From NCBI RefSeq assembly GCF_008386235.1, contig NZ_CP040671.1, positions 310,001 to 374,000 of the forward strand: a stretch of DNA of 64,000 nt. Reading direction: 5' to 3'. Under the pieces are notes generated by a model, which was not told where the DNA came from, did no database searches, and saw only the letters and a program-made list of their open reading frames with translations. How positions within the stretch are numbered: position 1 is the stretch's first letter; each line of letters starts with the position of its first letter. This stretch comes from Thermosynechococcus sp. CL-1. GTDB lineage: Bacteria > Cyanobacteriota > Cyanobacteriia > Thermosynechococcales > Thermosynechococcaceae. The position numbers and the translations under genes are program-made. This document shows positions 37,923-48,602 of the stretch, piece after piece.

Positions 37923-38915
37923 ATGAACGTTTTTATTGTTGGCGGTACGGGTACCCTAGGGCGGCAAATTGTGCGCCGCGCTTTAGATGAAGGACATCAG
38001 GTCTATTGTTTTGTCCGCAGTCCAGCCAAAGCCACCTTTCTGCGGGAATGGGGCGCCACCATTCTTCAGGGAAACCTCTGTGCTGCTGACAGTATTCTTG
38101 AGGCATTGCAGTACGCCAAAGCCTCAGTGGTCATTGATGCCTCTGCCACTCGCCCCACCGATACCCTAACCATCGAAGCAGTGGATTGGCAAGGCAAAGT
38201 CAACTTGATTCAGGCTGCCCAAGCTGCTGATATTGAGCACCTGATCTTTTTCTCGATTATGGGAGCGCAGGACTATCCCCACGTGCCCCTGATGCAAATC
38301 AAACACTGTACCGAAGACTTCTTGCGCGAATCAGGGCTAAACTACACGATCCTGCGTCCCTGTGGCTTCTTTCAGGGCTTGATTGGCCAATACGCGATCC
38401 CGATTCTGGAAAATCAATCCATTTGGGTTTTGGGAGAGTCCACCGCCATTGCCTACATGGATACTCAGGACGTGGCCAAATTTGCCGTGCGTGCCATTGA
38501 TCGGCCAGCGACCTATGGCAAAACCTTTGATCTAGCGGGCACCCGCGCTTGGACAGCCGATGAAATTATTAAGCTATGTGAAAATCTCTCAGGGCAGGAG
38601 GCAAAAATTACCCGCTTGCCCATTGGGGTTTTGCGAGCCGCACGGCAGGCCACCCAGTGGTTTCAGTGGACATGGAACATTAGCGATCGCCTTGCCTTTA
38701 CGGAAGTGATTGCCAGTGGTCAAGTCTTCAATGCCCCGATGGAGGAAGTCTATCGCACCTTTGACCTCGATCCCAGCGAAACCCTGACCCTTGAGGCCTA
38801 TTTACAGGACTATTTCACCCGAATTCTGCGTAAACTCAAAGAATTGGATTACGAAAAAGCCAAACAGAAAAAATCTGGACGCAAAAAACGCAGTCCCTTT
38901 AAGTCCACCCCCTAG
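37923..38915 (+). CDS. ycf39: Photosystem II assembly factor Ycf39
   Basis: Atypical SDR/NmrA-like protein of 330 residues. In cyanobacteria Ycf39 binds Hlip proteins and helps deliver chlorophyll to newly made D1. The NADP-binding loop is [17 protein letters not shown] at the N-terminus. The family-typical [21 protein letters not shown] lies near residue 130 (quoted in pieces), then [15 protein letters not shown] and [15 protein letters not shown] basic tail closes the protein. The next gene, ppnK, begins nine bases after its stop, so they are probably cotranscribed. Confidence 0.92.
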
Positions 38916-38923
38916 GAGTTGCT

Positions 38924-41925
<3,002 letters not shown>

Positions 41926-42037: not shown

Positions 42038-42769
42038 ATGGTTTCTGTCACGCCGTCTCGACCTGCTGGGAGTGCCAATGCTATGACCCGTGCTCAGGGC
42101 TATCAGCATCAGTTACACCAAACTCATCCGACGCGCACCAATCACTATAGCCTGCGGGACTATCTGCAATTTGATCGCCAACGGGGCAGCATTACCGACT
42201 GGTATGATCAGCGGATCGCTCTAGCGACAGAAGACTTTGTCATTGGCCTAGTGGAAGGTCTCGAAGAGGAAGTTGGCCCTGCTTCTGCCCTCGTCATGTA
42301 CAAAATTGGCGAAGAGTGGGGCAAACGCGATGCGGTTGTCTTTAAGCAACACTTTGAGCAAGAGTACCAGCGCGAACTACGCAAGGCCGCCTTGACATTT
42401 ATCCTTGAGGCTTGGTGGTGGCCCTTTACGACCCTAGGCTGGGGCAACTGGGAAGTGGATCTCACGGAGCAAAAGAATGGTTTTATGTTCATCAATATCT
42501 TTGACTCCGTGGTGGCGCGCACCCTTGGGGATGTGGGTAAGCCCGTCTGCTACATCTATGCCGGTCTGTTTGCGGGCTTCTTTACGGGATTGATTCAAAA
42601 GCCCCTGAGTTGTATCGAGTTGCAGTGCTATGCCATGGGGGAAACCTACTGTAAGTTTCTCGTCGGTAAACAGGATCGCATTGATGCTGCTGCCTTCTGG
42701 CAAAACGAAGGAGCCACGGCACGGGATATTGAAAAACGCCTGCGCCAAGGGGAGTTGGTGAAACGATAA
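42038..42769 (+). CDS. V4R-domain protein
   Basis: A 243-residue protein ending in a V4R (4-vinyl reductase) domain, about residues 75-225. The domain has the typical cysteine-rich end: VCYIYAGLFAGFF, then LSCIELQCYAMGETYCKFLVG (three cysteines). V4R domains bind small hydrophobic ligands or tetrapyrroles. Two allophycocyanin-like genes follow on the same strand. This layout resembles, from memory, the Synechocystis slr0144-slr0152 group linked to photosystem II assembly. ATG 42038 is used; an internal ATG at 42083 has a better ribosome site. Confidence 0.82.
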   Translation: MVSVTPSRPAGSANAMTRAQGYQHQLHQTHPTRTNHYSLRDYLQFDRQRGSITDWYDQRIALATEDFVIGLVEGLEEEVGPASALVMYKIGEEWGKRDAVVFKQHFEQEYQRELRKAALTFILEAWWWPFTTLGWGNWEVDLTEQKNGFMFINIFDSVVARTLGDVGKPVCYIYAGLFAGFFTGLIQKPLSCIELQCYAMGETYCKFLVGKQDRIDAAAFWQNEGATARDIEKRLRQGELVKR

Positions 42770-42814
42770 GCTCCAGGTGAGTGTGTTCATTTATTTTCTA
42801 GCGAGGGTTGCCCT

Positions 42815-43288
42815 ATGTTCCGTCAGTTGAATCACTTAACCGTTGTTGCCGATGGTCGCTATGCCCGTCCTGAGGAATTGAACTTTCTGCGGGATTATCT
42901 GGCCTCGGTGGAGAGTCGCATCAGTGCCTACGAAAAAATCCGCACTGAGGCGGAAATGATGGCGGATAAAATTCAATCCATGCAAAAGGCAGAAAATCCC
43001 CGCTGCTTCCAGTTCATCAATGGCGATCGCTCAGAAATTTGCCGTCGTGATTTAGTGGATACCATTCGTCTGTGTGCCTCGGCCATGCTTTTTGCGGAGT
43101 TGGACTTGCTGCGGGATAATTTCTTACTTTGGTACCGCACCATTGTCAAATCCTTTAACTACGAAGCAACTGCCTCCTCCACCTATGGCAAGTACCTGCC
43201 GAATATGATGAAGCAACTGCTCACGCCCGAAGAACAACGGGTGATGCAGCCTGTCCTTGCCCTCGGCAGTTCAATTTTGTCAGAATAG
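42815..43288 (+). CDS. Allophycocyanin-like phycobiliprotein-family protein
   Basis: A 157-residue phycobilisome-protein-family member, distant from ApcA/B/D/F. ADGRYARPEELNFLRDYLAS near residue 12 matches the N-terminal helices of phycobiliproteins. SEICRRDLVDTIRL near residue 73 aligns with the chromophore region, keeping Cys76, Arg78 and Asp79 of the C-x-R-D bilin motif. Cys64 and Cys87 are additional. It may bind a bilin or act as an assembly or degradation factor. It lies between the V4R gene and a paralog, on the same strand. GAGGG precedes ATG 42815. Confidence 0.8.
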   Translation: MFRQLNHLTVVADGRYARPEELNFLRDYLASVESRISAYEKIRTEAEMMADKIQSMQKAENPRCFQFINGDRSEICRRDLVDTIRLCASAMLFAELDLLRDNFLLWYRTIVKSFNYEATASSTYGKYLPNMMKQLLTPEEQRVMQPVLALGSSILSE

Positions 43289-43309
43289 AGTTGTTGTGGG
43301 GTGGGACTG

Positions 43310-43786
43310 ATGCTGCGTCAACTAGAAAAACTCAGCCTTGAGGCCGATGGCCGCTATGCCAGTGCCAAGGAACTGGAATTTCTCAGAAATTATCTAGCAG
43401 CAGCGGAGCAGCGCATTCGTGCCTACGAAAAAATCCGCGATGCTGAAGAGAAAATCCTAGATCAGGTGGAGCAGCAACTGCGCGCCAAAAGTCCCCATAT
43501 TTTCCGTAAGGGCAATCACGACTATTCCGCCGTGTGTCGGCGCGATCGCAAGCATGTGCTGCGCCTAGCGGCAGCGGCGATGTTATTTGCCGATTTGGAT
43601 GCCCTGCGGGATGGCTTCTTGCTGTGGTACCGCACGATCATTAAGGCCTTCAAGGATGAAAAGGTGGCACAAGTGACGTACCAAGTCCTGCCCCAAGCGG
43701 TCAATCAAGTGCTCTCGGGAGAGGAAACACCGTTAATGCAGCCTGTGATGGCACTGACCCAGTCCATCCTAGGGGAATCGGCTTGA
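43310..43786 (+). CDS. Second allophycocyanin-like protein (paralog)
   Basis: A 158-residue paralog of the preceding gene; the starts (MLRQLEKL and MFRQLNHL) and the whole length align. Its only cysteine is Cys76 within VCRRDRKHVLRL, the position of the phycobiliprotein bilin-attachment residue, with Arg78 and Asp79 retained. ATG 43310 matches the paralog's start; a GTG three codons earlier is possible. The gap to the first copy is 21 bp, so the pair is cotranscribed and may form a heterodimer. Confidence 0.8.
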   Translation: MLRQLEKLSLEADGRYASAKELEFLRNYLAAAEQRIRAYEKIRDAEEKILDQVEQQLRAKSPHIFRKGNHDYSAVCRRDRKHVLRLAAAAMLFADLDALRDGFLLWYRTIIKAFKDEKVAQVTYQVLPQAVNQVLSGEETPLMQPVMALTQSILGESA

Positions 43787-46159: not shown

Positions 46160-47770
46160 TCAGGAGGCCACCAAAGGGGAAGGTTGCGATCGCCGAGTGC
46201 GCTGTAGGCCATATTCGAGGGCTTCGGCAACTGCTTGGTAGGAAGCTTCAATGATATTGGCAGAGACACCGACTGTTGCCCAGCGATCGCGCCCATTACT
46301 GGATTCCACCAGCACCCGTGTTTTGGCTGCCGTGCCGGCATGGCCATCTAAAATCCGCACCTTGTAGTCCGTCAGGTGAAACTCGGCAATCTCTGGATAG
46401 AAGGACATCAAGGCCTTGCGCAGCGCCTGATCCAATGCCGAGACAGGACCATTGCCCTCTGCCGCCGTGAGCATCTCCTCCCCATTGACTTCAACTTTGA
46501 CCGTGGCCAGAGACTGGCTGCGAATCGTGGCCTCTAGTTGGCGTGAATCGGTGCGGCAAAAAACATCAAAGCCCTTGAGGGTAAAGGGTCGCTGGCGCTG
46601 CCCTAGAACCTCCTGAATCAGCAGTTCAAAGCTCGCTTCCGCCGCTTCAAATTGATAGCCTTCGCTTTCTAGGTGTTTAATCCGCTCCAAAATCGTCCGA
46701 CTCAGGGGATGCTGCCGATCCAACTCAAAGCCGAGTTCACTGGTTTTCGCCAAAATATTGCTGATACCCGCCTGCTCAGAAATAATAATGCGCCGTTGAT
46801 TGCCCACCCAATGCGGCTCAATGTGTTCGTAGGTACGGGGGTTACGCTGCACGGCACTGACATGGATTCCCCCCTTGTGGGCAAAGGCCGACAGACCCAC
46901 ATAGGGCGCGTGATCATCGGGGGCAAGGTTGACAATTTCACTCACATGGCGGCTGACTTCCGTCAGTGTCGCCAACTGCTCCGGAGTGACACAGTCATAG
47001 CCGAGTTTCAATTGCAGATTGGGAATCAGGGTGCACAGATTGGCATTGCCGCAGCGTTCGCCATAGCCGTTGATCGTTCCCTGCACCATCCGCACACCAC
47101 TTTGCACCGCCGCAAGGGCATTGGCTACTGCCGTCCCGGCATCATTGTGGGTGTGAATCCCCAGACAATCAAGGCCACCAAAGTGCGCCATTACGTCTGC
47201 CACTACGGCTTGAATTTGATGGGGGAGGCAACCGCCATTGGTATCACACAGAACGAGCCATTCTGCCCCAGCAGCCAAAGCCGTTTCAAGGGTTTGTAGG
47301 GCATAGTCTGGATTGGCAAGATAGCCATCAAACCAATGCTCAGCATCGTAGATCACCCGCCGTCCTTGGGAGCGGAGGAACTGGATTGAGTCGGCAATCA
47401 TGGCGCAGTTTTCGGCCAAGGTGGTCTTGAGGCCGTCGGTGACATGCAGATCCCAAGATTTGCCAAAGAGTGTCACCCAGCGGGTACCGGCCGCTAGAAT
47501 CGGCTCAAACATTGGCTCTTCTGCGGCCTTGCGGCCGGGGCGACGAGTGGCACAAAAAGCAACGATTTCTGCCTGTTGGAGGGGCGTTTCCTGCAACTGC
47601 CAAAAAAACTGTACGTCCTTGGGATTGGCACCCGGCCACCCCCCCTCAATAAAGGGAATGCCAAGGCGATCCAGTTGACGGGCAATCCGCAGTTTATCCT
47701 CGAGGGAGAGGGAGAGACCTTCCCGCTGGGCGCCATCGCGGAGAGTGGTATCGTACAGCCAAATTTTCAC
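46160..47770 (-). CDS. cimA: (R)-Citramalate synthase
   Basis: Condenses pyruvate with acetyl-CoA to citramalate, giving the threonine-independent route to isoleucine. The 536-residue length, the opening YDTTLRDGAQREG and the FIEGGWPGANPKD motif near residue 40 separate it from isopropylmalate synthase. HTHNDAGTAVANALA near residue 205 supplies the metal ligands. The C-terminal allosteric domain starts near residue 385. It begins at GTG 47770, which overlaps the ComFB stop by four bases, so translation is likely coupled. Confidence 0.93.
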   Translation of the reverse strand: MKIWLYDTTLRDGAQREGLSLSLEDKLRIARQLDRLGIPFIEGGWPGANPKDVQFFWQLQETPLQQAEIVAFCATRRPGRKAAEEPMFEPILAAGTRWVTLFGKSWDLHVTDGLKTTLAENCAMIADSIQFLRSQGRRVIYDAEHWFDGYLANPDYALQTLETALAAGAEWLVLCDTNGGCLPHQIQAVVADVMAHFGGLDCLGIHTHNDAGTAVANALAAVQSGVRMVQGTINGYGERCGNANLCTLIPNLQLKLGYDCVTPEQLATLTEVSRHVSEIVNLAPDDHAPYVGLSAFAHKGGIHVSAVQRNPRTYEHIEPHWVGNQRRIIISEQAGISNILAKTSELGFELDRQHPLSRTILERIKHLESEGYQFEAAEASFELLIQEVLGQRQRPFTLKGFDVFCRTDSRQLEATIRSQSLATVKVEVNGEEMLTAAEGNGPVSALDQALRKALMSFYPEIAEFHLTDYKVRILDGHAGTAAKTRVLVESSNGRDRWATVGVSANIIEASYQAVAEALEYGLQRTRRSQPSPLVAS

Positions 47771-48321
47771 TGTGCCGACTCTCCCTTGGGATGCTCATAG
47801 TCATTGGCGTAAGCCTGCAGCAAAGAACTGACTTGGGAAAAGACCTCTTTACCAGAGGTTTTGCCAATGGCCGATCGCTCCGGATGAAATTGTGGCCGTG
47901 CCATGCTGCGGTTAATCGCCTCTTGGACTTGGGCGCGAATCAGATCCATGAGTTCCTCTTCAGCCCGCTGGCGTTGATACTGTGCGCCCTCTTCGGTTGT
48001 GGCGTAGAGCGGGGGAAGGCGGTTGAGGGCGTAGGCGGCAATATCTCCCAAATCAAGGGCGCATTCTTGCTCCGCTTCAATGGCAGCAATGCGGGTAATT
48101 GCCTCGGTGAGCACCAATTCTTCCATGACGTTGATAAATTGCTTGCGGGGAACCGCCACCACTTGCCCCGTCAATAGGGCACCCATAAGGCGATCCAACG
48201 CCATATAGTCTTCCACGGAGAGTTCGGTGGCTTTGTCGCAAATGCGTCCTACTTCTGCCTCCTGCGTTGGTGTGAGATAACCATTGCGCAGTGCTTGTTC
48301 AACAATCTCTTGAATCCCCAT
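47767..48321 (-). CDS. ComFB-family protein
   Basis: A 184-residue protein with a ComFB domain (about residues 75-150). NVMEELVLTEAITRI near residue 70 and AYALNRLPPLYATTEEGA near residue 100 are the family signatures. Cyanobacterial ComFB/CdgR proteins bind cyclic dinucleotides and influence motility, competence and cell size. An N-terminal helical region (1-65) and a C-terminal extension (150-184) flank the domain. ATG 48321 is used; the longer frame adds 35 residues of no family character. Its stop overlaps the start of cimA. Confidence 0.8.
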   Translation of the reverse strand: MGIQEIVEQALRNGYLTPTQEAEVGRICDKATELSVEDYMALDRLMGALLTGQVVAVPRKQFINVMEELVLTEAITRIAAIEAEQECALDLGDIAAYALNRLPPLYATTEEGAQYQRQRAEEELMDLIRAQVQEAINRSMARPQFHPERSAIGKTSGKEVFSQVSSLLQAYANDYEHPKGESAQ

Positions 48322-48602
48322 ACGTGTTTCCGCCGTAATTGCTGTAGGGGCACTCCCCCACTCAAATTTAGTATATGCCGAGGAACTGCCAAGGGCAGGG
48401 GGAATTTTGCACTGTAGGTAGTCCATATTTTAGAAAAAGGCGGTAACGCTAAGATAACGATAAGAACTGTTGCAAAGAACTGCCAAATCCTACGAAATCT
48501 TTATATTTATACCTGTATAGCCAAGTGGTAAAATTGTCGTAGGAAATAATTAAAGGCTAGCAGTCGCCCACATCATTCTCATTTCTTCTTCTGTTGCAGC
48601 CT
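48322..48602. other. Divergent intergenic region with an 8-bp inverted repeat
   Basis: This 281-bp region separates leftward comFB-cimA from the rightward small membrane protein. TCCTACGA (48488-48495) and TCGTAGGA (48537-48544) are perfect inverted copies 41 bp apart, flanking AT-rich DNA that includes TAAAAT. No gene or known RNA was seen. Whether the repeat is an operator or chance is open. Confidence 0.45.

Follow-up and report, generated by a model that had tools for sequence, protein, structure and literature searches.

The globins considered in this work belong to a group which Rockwell et al. in 2023 named the cyanobacterial BBAGs, bilin biosynthesis-associated globins (PMC10151467). 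According to the available text of that paper, many cyanobacteria have lost the slr0144–slr0149 cluster, others have it in duplicate, and some cyanobacterial BBAGs have the motif CXRD. Bilin binding is reported there for BBAG-1, BBAG-2 and BBAG-3, of which BBAG-1 and BBAG-3 self-assemble with bilins without a lyase; the fluorescence yield is about 3% for a BBAG-3 protein and 4% and 7% for two BBAG-2 proteins, and the holoproteins of BBAG-1 and BBAG-2 are photoinactive or photoinert. The binding tests described in the available text covered no cyanobacterial BBAG. Relatives in other bacteria adjoin genes of bilin reductases, often together with heme oxygenase.

In Synechocystis, the proteins Slr0144–Slr0149 are located in the thylakoid, and tagged Slr0149 served to validate their mutual interactions (PMC9880817). 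Published reports on the operon differ: one associates it with photosystem II (PSII) assembly, with growth slowed and PSII activity lowered (PMC9145668), while in another growth was unaffected, oxygen evolution was reduced and a link to photosystem I (PSI) genes was described (PMC5970561). A link of the Pap operon to PSI was also reported (PMC4853703). Deletion alleles of slr0148 did not segregate (PMC8887894), and the phenotypes of the cluster may stem from neighbouring genes (PMC10151467).

The locus described below shares with the published BBAG cluster (PMC10151467) the globin type, the motif CXRD and the V4R partner, but its Slr0149-type gene is located outside the cluster, is doubled and is accompanied by a second Slr0144-type gene, with no Fe-S or second-type V4R gene adjoining. 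The same protein families form the Pap operon of Synechocystis (slr0144–slr0152; PMC4853703, PMC9145668, PMC5970561), and a home cluster is present here too, whereas V4R-A and globin genes are the sole members found in the satellite. The family itself is already published; the relocation, the doubling and the extent of the Cys/Trp split are novel here. Among open-access papers (most subscription papers lay outside the scope), no literature on the Thermosynechococcus arrangement or the Trp form was found.

Genes of the locus

The window, a stretch of 64,000 nucleotides, belongs to a 2.65 Mb genome of the heat-loving cyanobacterium Thermosynechococcus. Three consecutive genes of its forward strand were studied, namely, A2 (42038–42769, 243 aa), encoding a Slr0144-type V4R protein in its second copy (PF02830, E 8.6e-22), G1 (42815–43288, 157 aa; PF00502, E 2.4e-10) and G2 (43310–43786, 158 aa; PF00502, E 2.2e-18), encoding the first and the second Slr0149-type globin. 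All three matches are above the curated Pfam cut-offs, and the intergenic gaps are 45 bases between A2 and G1 and 21 bases between G1 and G2. An alternative GTG start of G2 at 43301 is possible, giving 161 aa; residues of both globins are counted here from the homologous ATG starts. The closest named match to A2 is a protein of a Thermosynechococcus MAG with 98% identity, and the best profile match of A2 is the Slr0144 type, not the Slr0147 type. In scans for promoters and terminators, sites were no more numerous than in shuffles.

Upstream of A2, positions 37923–41925 of the same strand contain an NmrA-family gene, which we take to be Ycf39-like, followed by genes of NAD kinase and ligA, assigned by Pfam and ORFs; gaps within this trio are 8 and 5 bases, and 112 bases separate its ligA side from A2. 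The order is kept in 9/9 further Thermosynechococcus loci. Outside the genus, ligA alone was found in genomes G016 and G012 and none of the three genes in G018, so a functional tie to the Ycf39-like gene was given no weight. On the reverse strand, a ComFB-domain protein is encoded at 47767–48426 (PF10719, E 2e-21).

Identity of the globins

The first-pass annotation of the window had described a V4R gene followed on the same strand by two tandem allophycocyanin-like genes, and ORFs and Pfam matches agree with this order. C-x-R-D had been placed at residues 76–79 of both globins, and CRRD is indeed read in both, at 43040–43051 in G1 (Cys76, Arg78, Asp79) and at 43535–43546 in G2; the CXRD trait known from some BBAGs is thus present in each copy. 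Cys76 is the only cysteine of G2, as had been noted, while G1 has two more. In the alignment to allophycocyanin chains, which had been proposed as a check of the cysteine position, HMMER pairs Cys76 with the cysteine of CxRD. G1 and G2 are 53% identical to each other.

Their likeness to allophycocyanin holds for the fold but not for identity. The fold predicted for G1, including N-terminal helices, and the Cys-x-Arg-Asp of both globins are shared with the light-harvesting phycobiliproteins (ApcA/ApcB, CpcA/CpcB), but identity to the solved phycobiliprotein structures listed is 12–20%, and there are four residues fewer immediately before the cysteine. With the NCBIfam models of ApcA/ApcB, G1 and G2 score 12–39 bits against cut-offs of 228–270. 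A quick tree was built from 61 selected rows, with 43 of the 95 Slr0149-labelled and 12 of the 75 Slr0146-labelled globins among them. Both proteins fall within the Slr0149 clade (34 rows, starred support 99), and the genome's own six phycobiliproteins group apart (also 99, starred). These cut-offs and the tree rule out G1 and G2 as allophycocyanin paralogs and bear out the earlier placement outside the phycobilisome families. They also make it highly improbable that the globins are minor core subunits of the phycobilisome of the allophycocyanin type, a reading that draws on the shared fold and motif; against it stand, besides the low scores and the separate clade, six further phycobiliprotein genes of the genome with high scores (176–219 bits).

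G1 and G2 are cyanobacterial BBAGs of the Slr0149 type, as their sequence, the tree and the fold predicted for G1 show; the gene neighbourhood, with a V4R-A gene only, agrees in part. The kinship with slr0144–slr0152 that had been suggested for the locus is supported by the same families and by a home cluster in the same genome: A2, G1 and G2 are pieces of the already known slr0144–slr0149 (Pap) cluster.

Predicted fold and interface

The AlphaFold model of G1 as a single chain, built with 57 natural sequences, has a pLDDT of 91.8 and a pTM of 0.85 and supports a full phycobiliprotein fold; a single-sequence model with a pLDDT of 59 was set aside. Each of the 50 entries that VIA-align lists for G1 is a phycobiliprotein, the ApcE bilin domain or smURFP (Z 16.0–17.7), and Foldseek on the model gives an agreeing result. 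The structure match yields ranges rather than residue pairs, and the placement of Cys76 rests on the HMMER alignments.

Asp/Glu13 is found in 86/86, Tyr16 in 81/86 and Arg85 in 77/86 Slr0149-type proteins; these are presumably the alpha/beta interface residues of phycobiliproteins. The Slr0146-type globin retains Arg85 in 71 of 72 proteins and Asp79 in only 4 of 72, which suggests that home clusters elsewhere combine a pigment-type globin with a blind one. In the satellite, by this sequence pattern, two pigment-type globins would pair.

Home cluster and satellite

The home cluster of the same genome is located at C1:969–975 kb, about 615 kb from A2–G1–G2, and contains Slr0144-, Slr0145-, Slr0146-, Slr0147-, Slr0148-, Slr0151- and Slr0152-like genes. 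Globin, V4R, 2Fe-2S, TPR and kinase domains were detected in it by Pfam, with no Pfam match for the 0145-like gene. By profile matches and inspection, a Slr0149-type gene is absent from this cluster, and none was found in 7/7 inspected home clusters of pair-bearing genomes (L017, L062, L063, L072, L073, L074 and L156). The globin kept in the home cluster of satellite genomes is of the type without the RD motif. Next to G1 and G2 only the V4R-A gene is found, the Fe-S and V4R-B genes being about 615 kb away in the home cluster; the same split is present in two other genera. A bilin reductase gene (PF05996) is located at C1:978740–979390, with about 4 kb between it and the end of the home cluster; in G016 and G018 such a gene is not close to it.

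The home cluster is followed by a protein kinase gene (L017:9082–10875; PF00069, E 8.6e-46), a neighbour in favour of a reading in which the globins are bilin photoreceptors reporting light to the assembly machinery. No kinase was seen among the ORFs of the satellite, and the BBAG-1 and BBAG-2 holoproteins, in the available text of PMC10151467, are photoinactive or photoinert. A photoreceptor is therefore very improbable; light sensing by G1 and G2, the "bilin-sensing" part of the first-pass annotation, is not supported.

The satellite A–G1–G2 was found in 11/11 Thermosynechococcus genomes and in two sister genera (G016 and G018). All 13 have two globins: with nine candidates scored per genome, each gave two Slr0149-type matches. 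The genome G012 contains a V4R-A gene and one globin only, with no Slr0144 gene in its home-cluster stretch. In a careful V4R tree, home and satellite copies of three genera are sister groups (support 94/88 for their union, 100/97 and 99/96, both starred, for each), from which it follows that the V4R gene was doubled in these three genera. The copy of G012 branches outside the Thermosynechococcus pair, and one origin for all satellite V4R genes including G012 has a p-AU of 0.096. In a quick tree, in which seven near-identical Thermosynechococcus loci were thinned, the satellite globins form one clade (12 rows, starred support 95) split into a G1 group (99, starred) and a G2 group (88), which points to a single globin duplication before the three genera parted.

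The arrangement elsewhere is different. Of the host family, 11 further loci have both neighbours visible, and in these the Slr0149-type gene is flanked by the Fe-S and TPR genes; no Fe-S gene was seen beside it on the partial contigs L154 and L155 of the same family. Non-cyanobacterial loci have the order Fe-S, V4R-A, globin, V4R-B in 9/10 cases, some with a kinase between. Across the class, Slr0144-type genes were found in 236/388 genomes (E <= 1e-40) and Slr0149-type genes in 223/388 (E <= 1e-20). Distances between the two outside the family were taken, among the matches listed, from 71 genomes: the Slr0149-type gene is at most 1.6 kb upstream of the Slr0144-type gene on the same strand in 33, 1.6–4 kb downstream in 14 (13 on the same and 1 on the other strand), on another contig in 20 and farther away on the same contig in 4. 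The upstream cases were rejected as satellites; where fetched, they represent the whole cluster in permuted order. The relocation and doubling of the Slr0149 gene beside a second Slr0144 copy is a new arrangement, and gene comparison and trees together identify A2–G1–G2 as a relocated, duplicated satellite of the slr0144–slr0149 (Pap/BBAG) cluster.

Cysteine and tryptophan at position 76

Cys76 is present in 27/27 distinct satellite proteins, so the cysteine of CRRD reflects homology and not chance. In the first set of 86 cyanobacterial Slr0149-type proteins, which omits ten non-cyanobacterial loci, the frame-broken copy of L067 and identical sequences, Cys76 is found in 74; the other 12 have Trp (5), Tyr (2), Phe (2), Ser (2) or Gly (1), and a quick tree built without the motif requires at least eight losses or gains of Cys76. 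The second set comprises 40 orthologs of other families in the class, hand-picked across genera and not random (L199 equals L117), with 36 Trp and 4 Cys. Asp79 is present in 85/86 and 40/40 proteins, respectively. Both sets together (126 rows) contain 78 Cys, 41 Trp, 2 Tyr, 2 Phe, 2 Ser and 1 Gly, and on a thinned quick tree of 112 rows the aromatic state changes at least eight times, four of the changes being forced by starred branches. Cys120 is found in 38/45 aromatic-76 proteins, in 4/78 with Cys76 and in 1/3 others, largely in one clade. The words "Trp" and "tryptophan" are absent from the main text of PMC10151467.

Cys76 is an optional trait of the family but fixed in the satellites. Among four Thermosynechococcus genomes, dN/dS is 0.05–0.14 for G1 and G2 and 0.03–0.08 for A2 (one A2 pair was saturated), and both globins are under purifying selection; between genera, dS is near or past saturation. 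Retention of the attachment motif under this selection and the predicted fold of G1 are in line with the earlier annotation. Bilin binding by G1 and G2 is likely by analogy with the published BBAGs.

Since Cys76 is replaced in 12/86 and 36/40 orthologs, mostly by Trp, the core function can do without a covalent bilin at this position. The globins may then serve the Pap complex chiefly as structural subunits, with an inherited cysteine and a non-essential bilin. The repeated changes at position 76 and the Trp form agree with this, as does the Slr0146-type globin, which rarely has Asp79 yet is a regular member of the cluster. In the satellites, on the other hand, the cysteine is kept in every protein through duplication and deep divergence, and Acaryochloris retains it with one phycobiliprotein-type gene left; a purely structural role is possible but doubtful.

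The combination of Trp76, Asp79 and the usual Cys120 possibly represents a second mode of pocket use. A more speculative proposal, somewhat less probable than the structural role, is that cyanobacterial BBAGs have two alternative site states, a bilin-linkable cysteine and an aromatic residue (mostly Trp, usually together with Cys120), switched several times. In Thermosynechococcus and its two sister genera, the satellite would be an all-pigmented heterodimer with a V4R partner of its own, separated from a home complex left with the RD-less globin, and the bilin an optional cofactor altering the handling of chlorophyll or excitation in photosystem assembly, perhaps at high temperature. The Cys/Trp split among orthologs amounts to a natural experiment that bears on the importance of the pigment.

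Globins in the genus Acaryochloris

In the genus Acaryochloris, each of 7/7 genomes (G001–G007, 82–98% complete) contains a single phycobiliprotein-type gene (151–162 bits), whereas nine relatives have 7–23 phycobiliprotein-family matches each; the genomes compared are in part incomplete. A PcyA-type gene was found in six of the seven. Cys76 is present in 8/8 Slr0149-type genes of the genus, one of them frame-broken and one reading CQSD, and the motif thus survives where phycobiliproteins are nearly gone. In L067 (7482–9195), the globin and V4R-B genes are each split over two frames, which may reflect sequencing error or decay.

These genomes bear on a further alternative, in which the globins keep phycocyanobilin in store for transfer to antenna proteins or protect the cell from bilin in free form. 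The reported proximity of relatives to bilin reductases and often heme oxygenase, and their binding of several bilins without a lyase (PMC10151467), are in its favour. In Acaryochloris, however, the globin is kept with almost no antenna to load. Covalent storage of a bilin through a thioether is, moreover, hard to reverse, and a store or chaperone appears improbable.

Possible function

The preferred explanation, held at even chances, is that in the relocated satellite a bilin-carrying globin dimer and its V4R partner serve a thylakoid photosystem-assembly complex and not the phycobilisome. Each of G1 and G2 would bond covalently with phycocyanobilin through Cys76, probably unaided by a lyase; lyases may be unneeded because BBAG-1 and BBAG-3 bind bilins without them. 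The two globins would pair in the manner of the alpha and beta chains of phycobiliproteins, with both partners of the satellite pigment-competent, whereas the home cluster has Slr0146 without the RD motif. A2 may bind a hydrophobic compound, conceivably a precursor of chlorophyll, and would tie the globins to the thylakoid Pap complex, by analogy with Synechocystis. While photosystems are assembled or repaired, a weakly fluorescent bilin could hold the energy of pigments or possibly quench it.

This mechanism is a commitment and not a result, since the reports on Synechocystis differ and effects of neighbouring genes are possible. The role in photosystem assembly is inferred by analogy; against it stand the distance of about 615 kb between A2–G1–G2 and the home cluster and the origin of the Pap phenotypes from Synechocystis. 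Because the globins and one of the V4R proteins lie apart from the rest of the cluster here, the satellite gives access to their function with the PSII-repair genes next to slr0149 left intact.

The V4R partner

In the V4R domain of A2, residues C171, E194, C197 and C205 (42548–42652, forward strand) are candidate zinc ligands by conservation and alignment. They are invariant in 11/11 aligned Slr0144-type proteins and align with Cys, Glu, Cys and Cys of MopR; in sensor domains of the MopR class, zinc is bound by three cysteines and one glutamate (PMC10715001, PMC7264223). A2 thus shares with the V4R sensors MopR and DmpR the V4R domain and the pattern of three cysteines and a glutamate. Unlike in these sensors, no ATPase or DNA-binding domain was detected in A2 by Pfam, and Trp134, which anchors phenol in MopR, aligns with Phe in A2.
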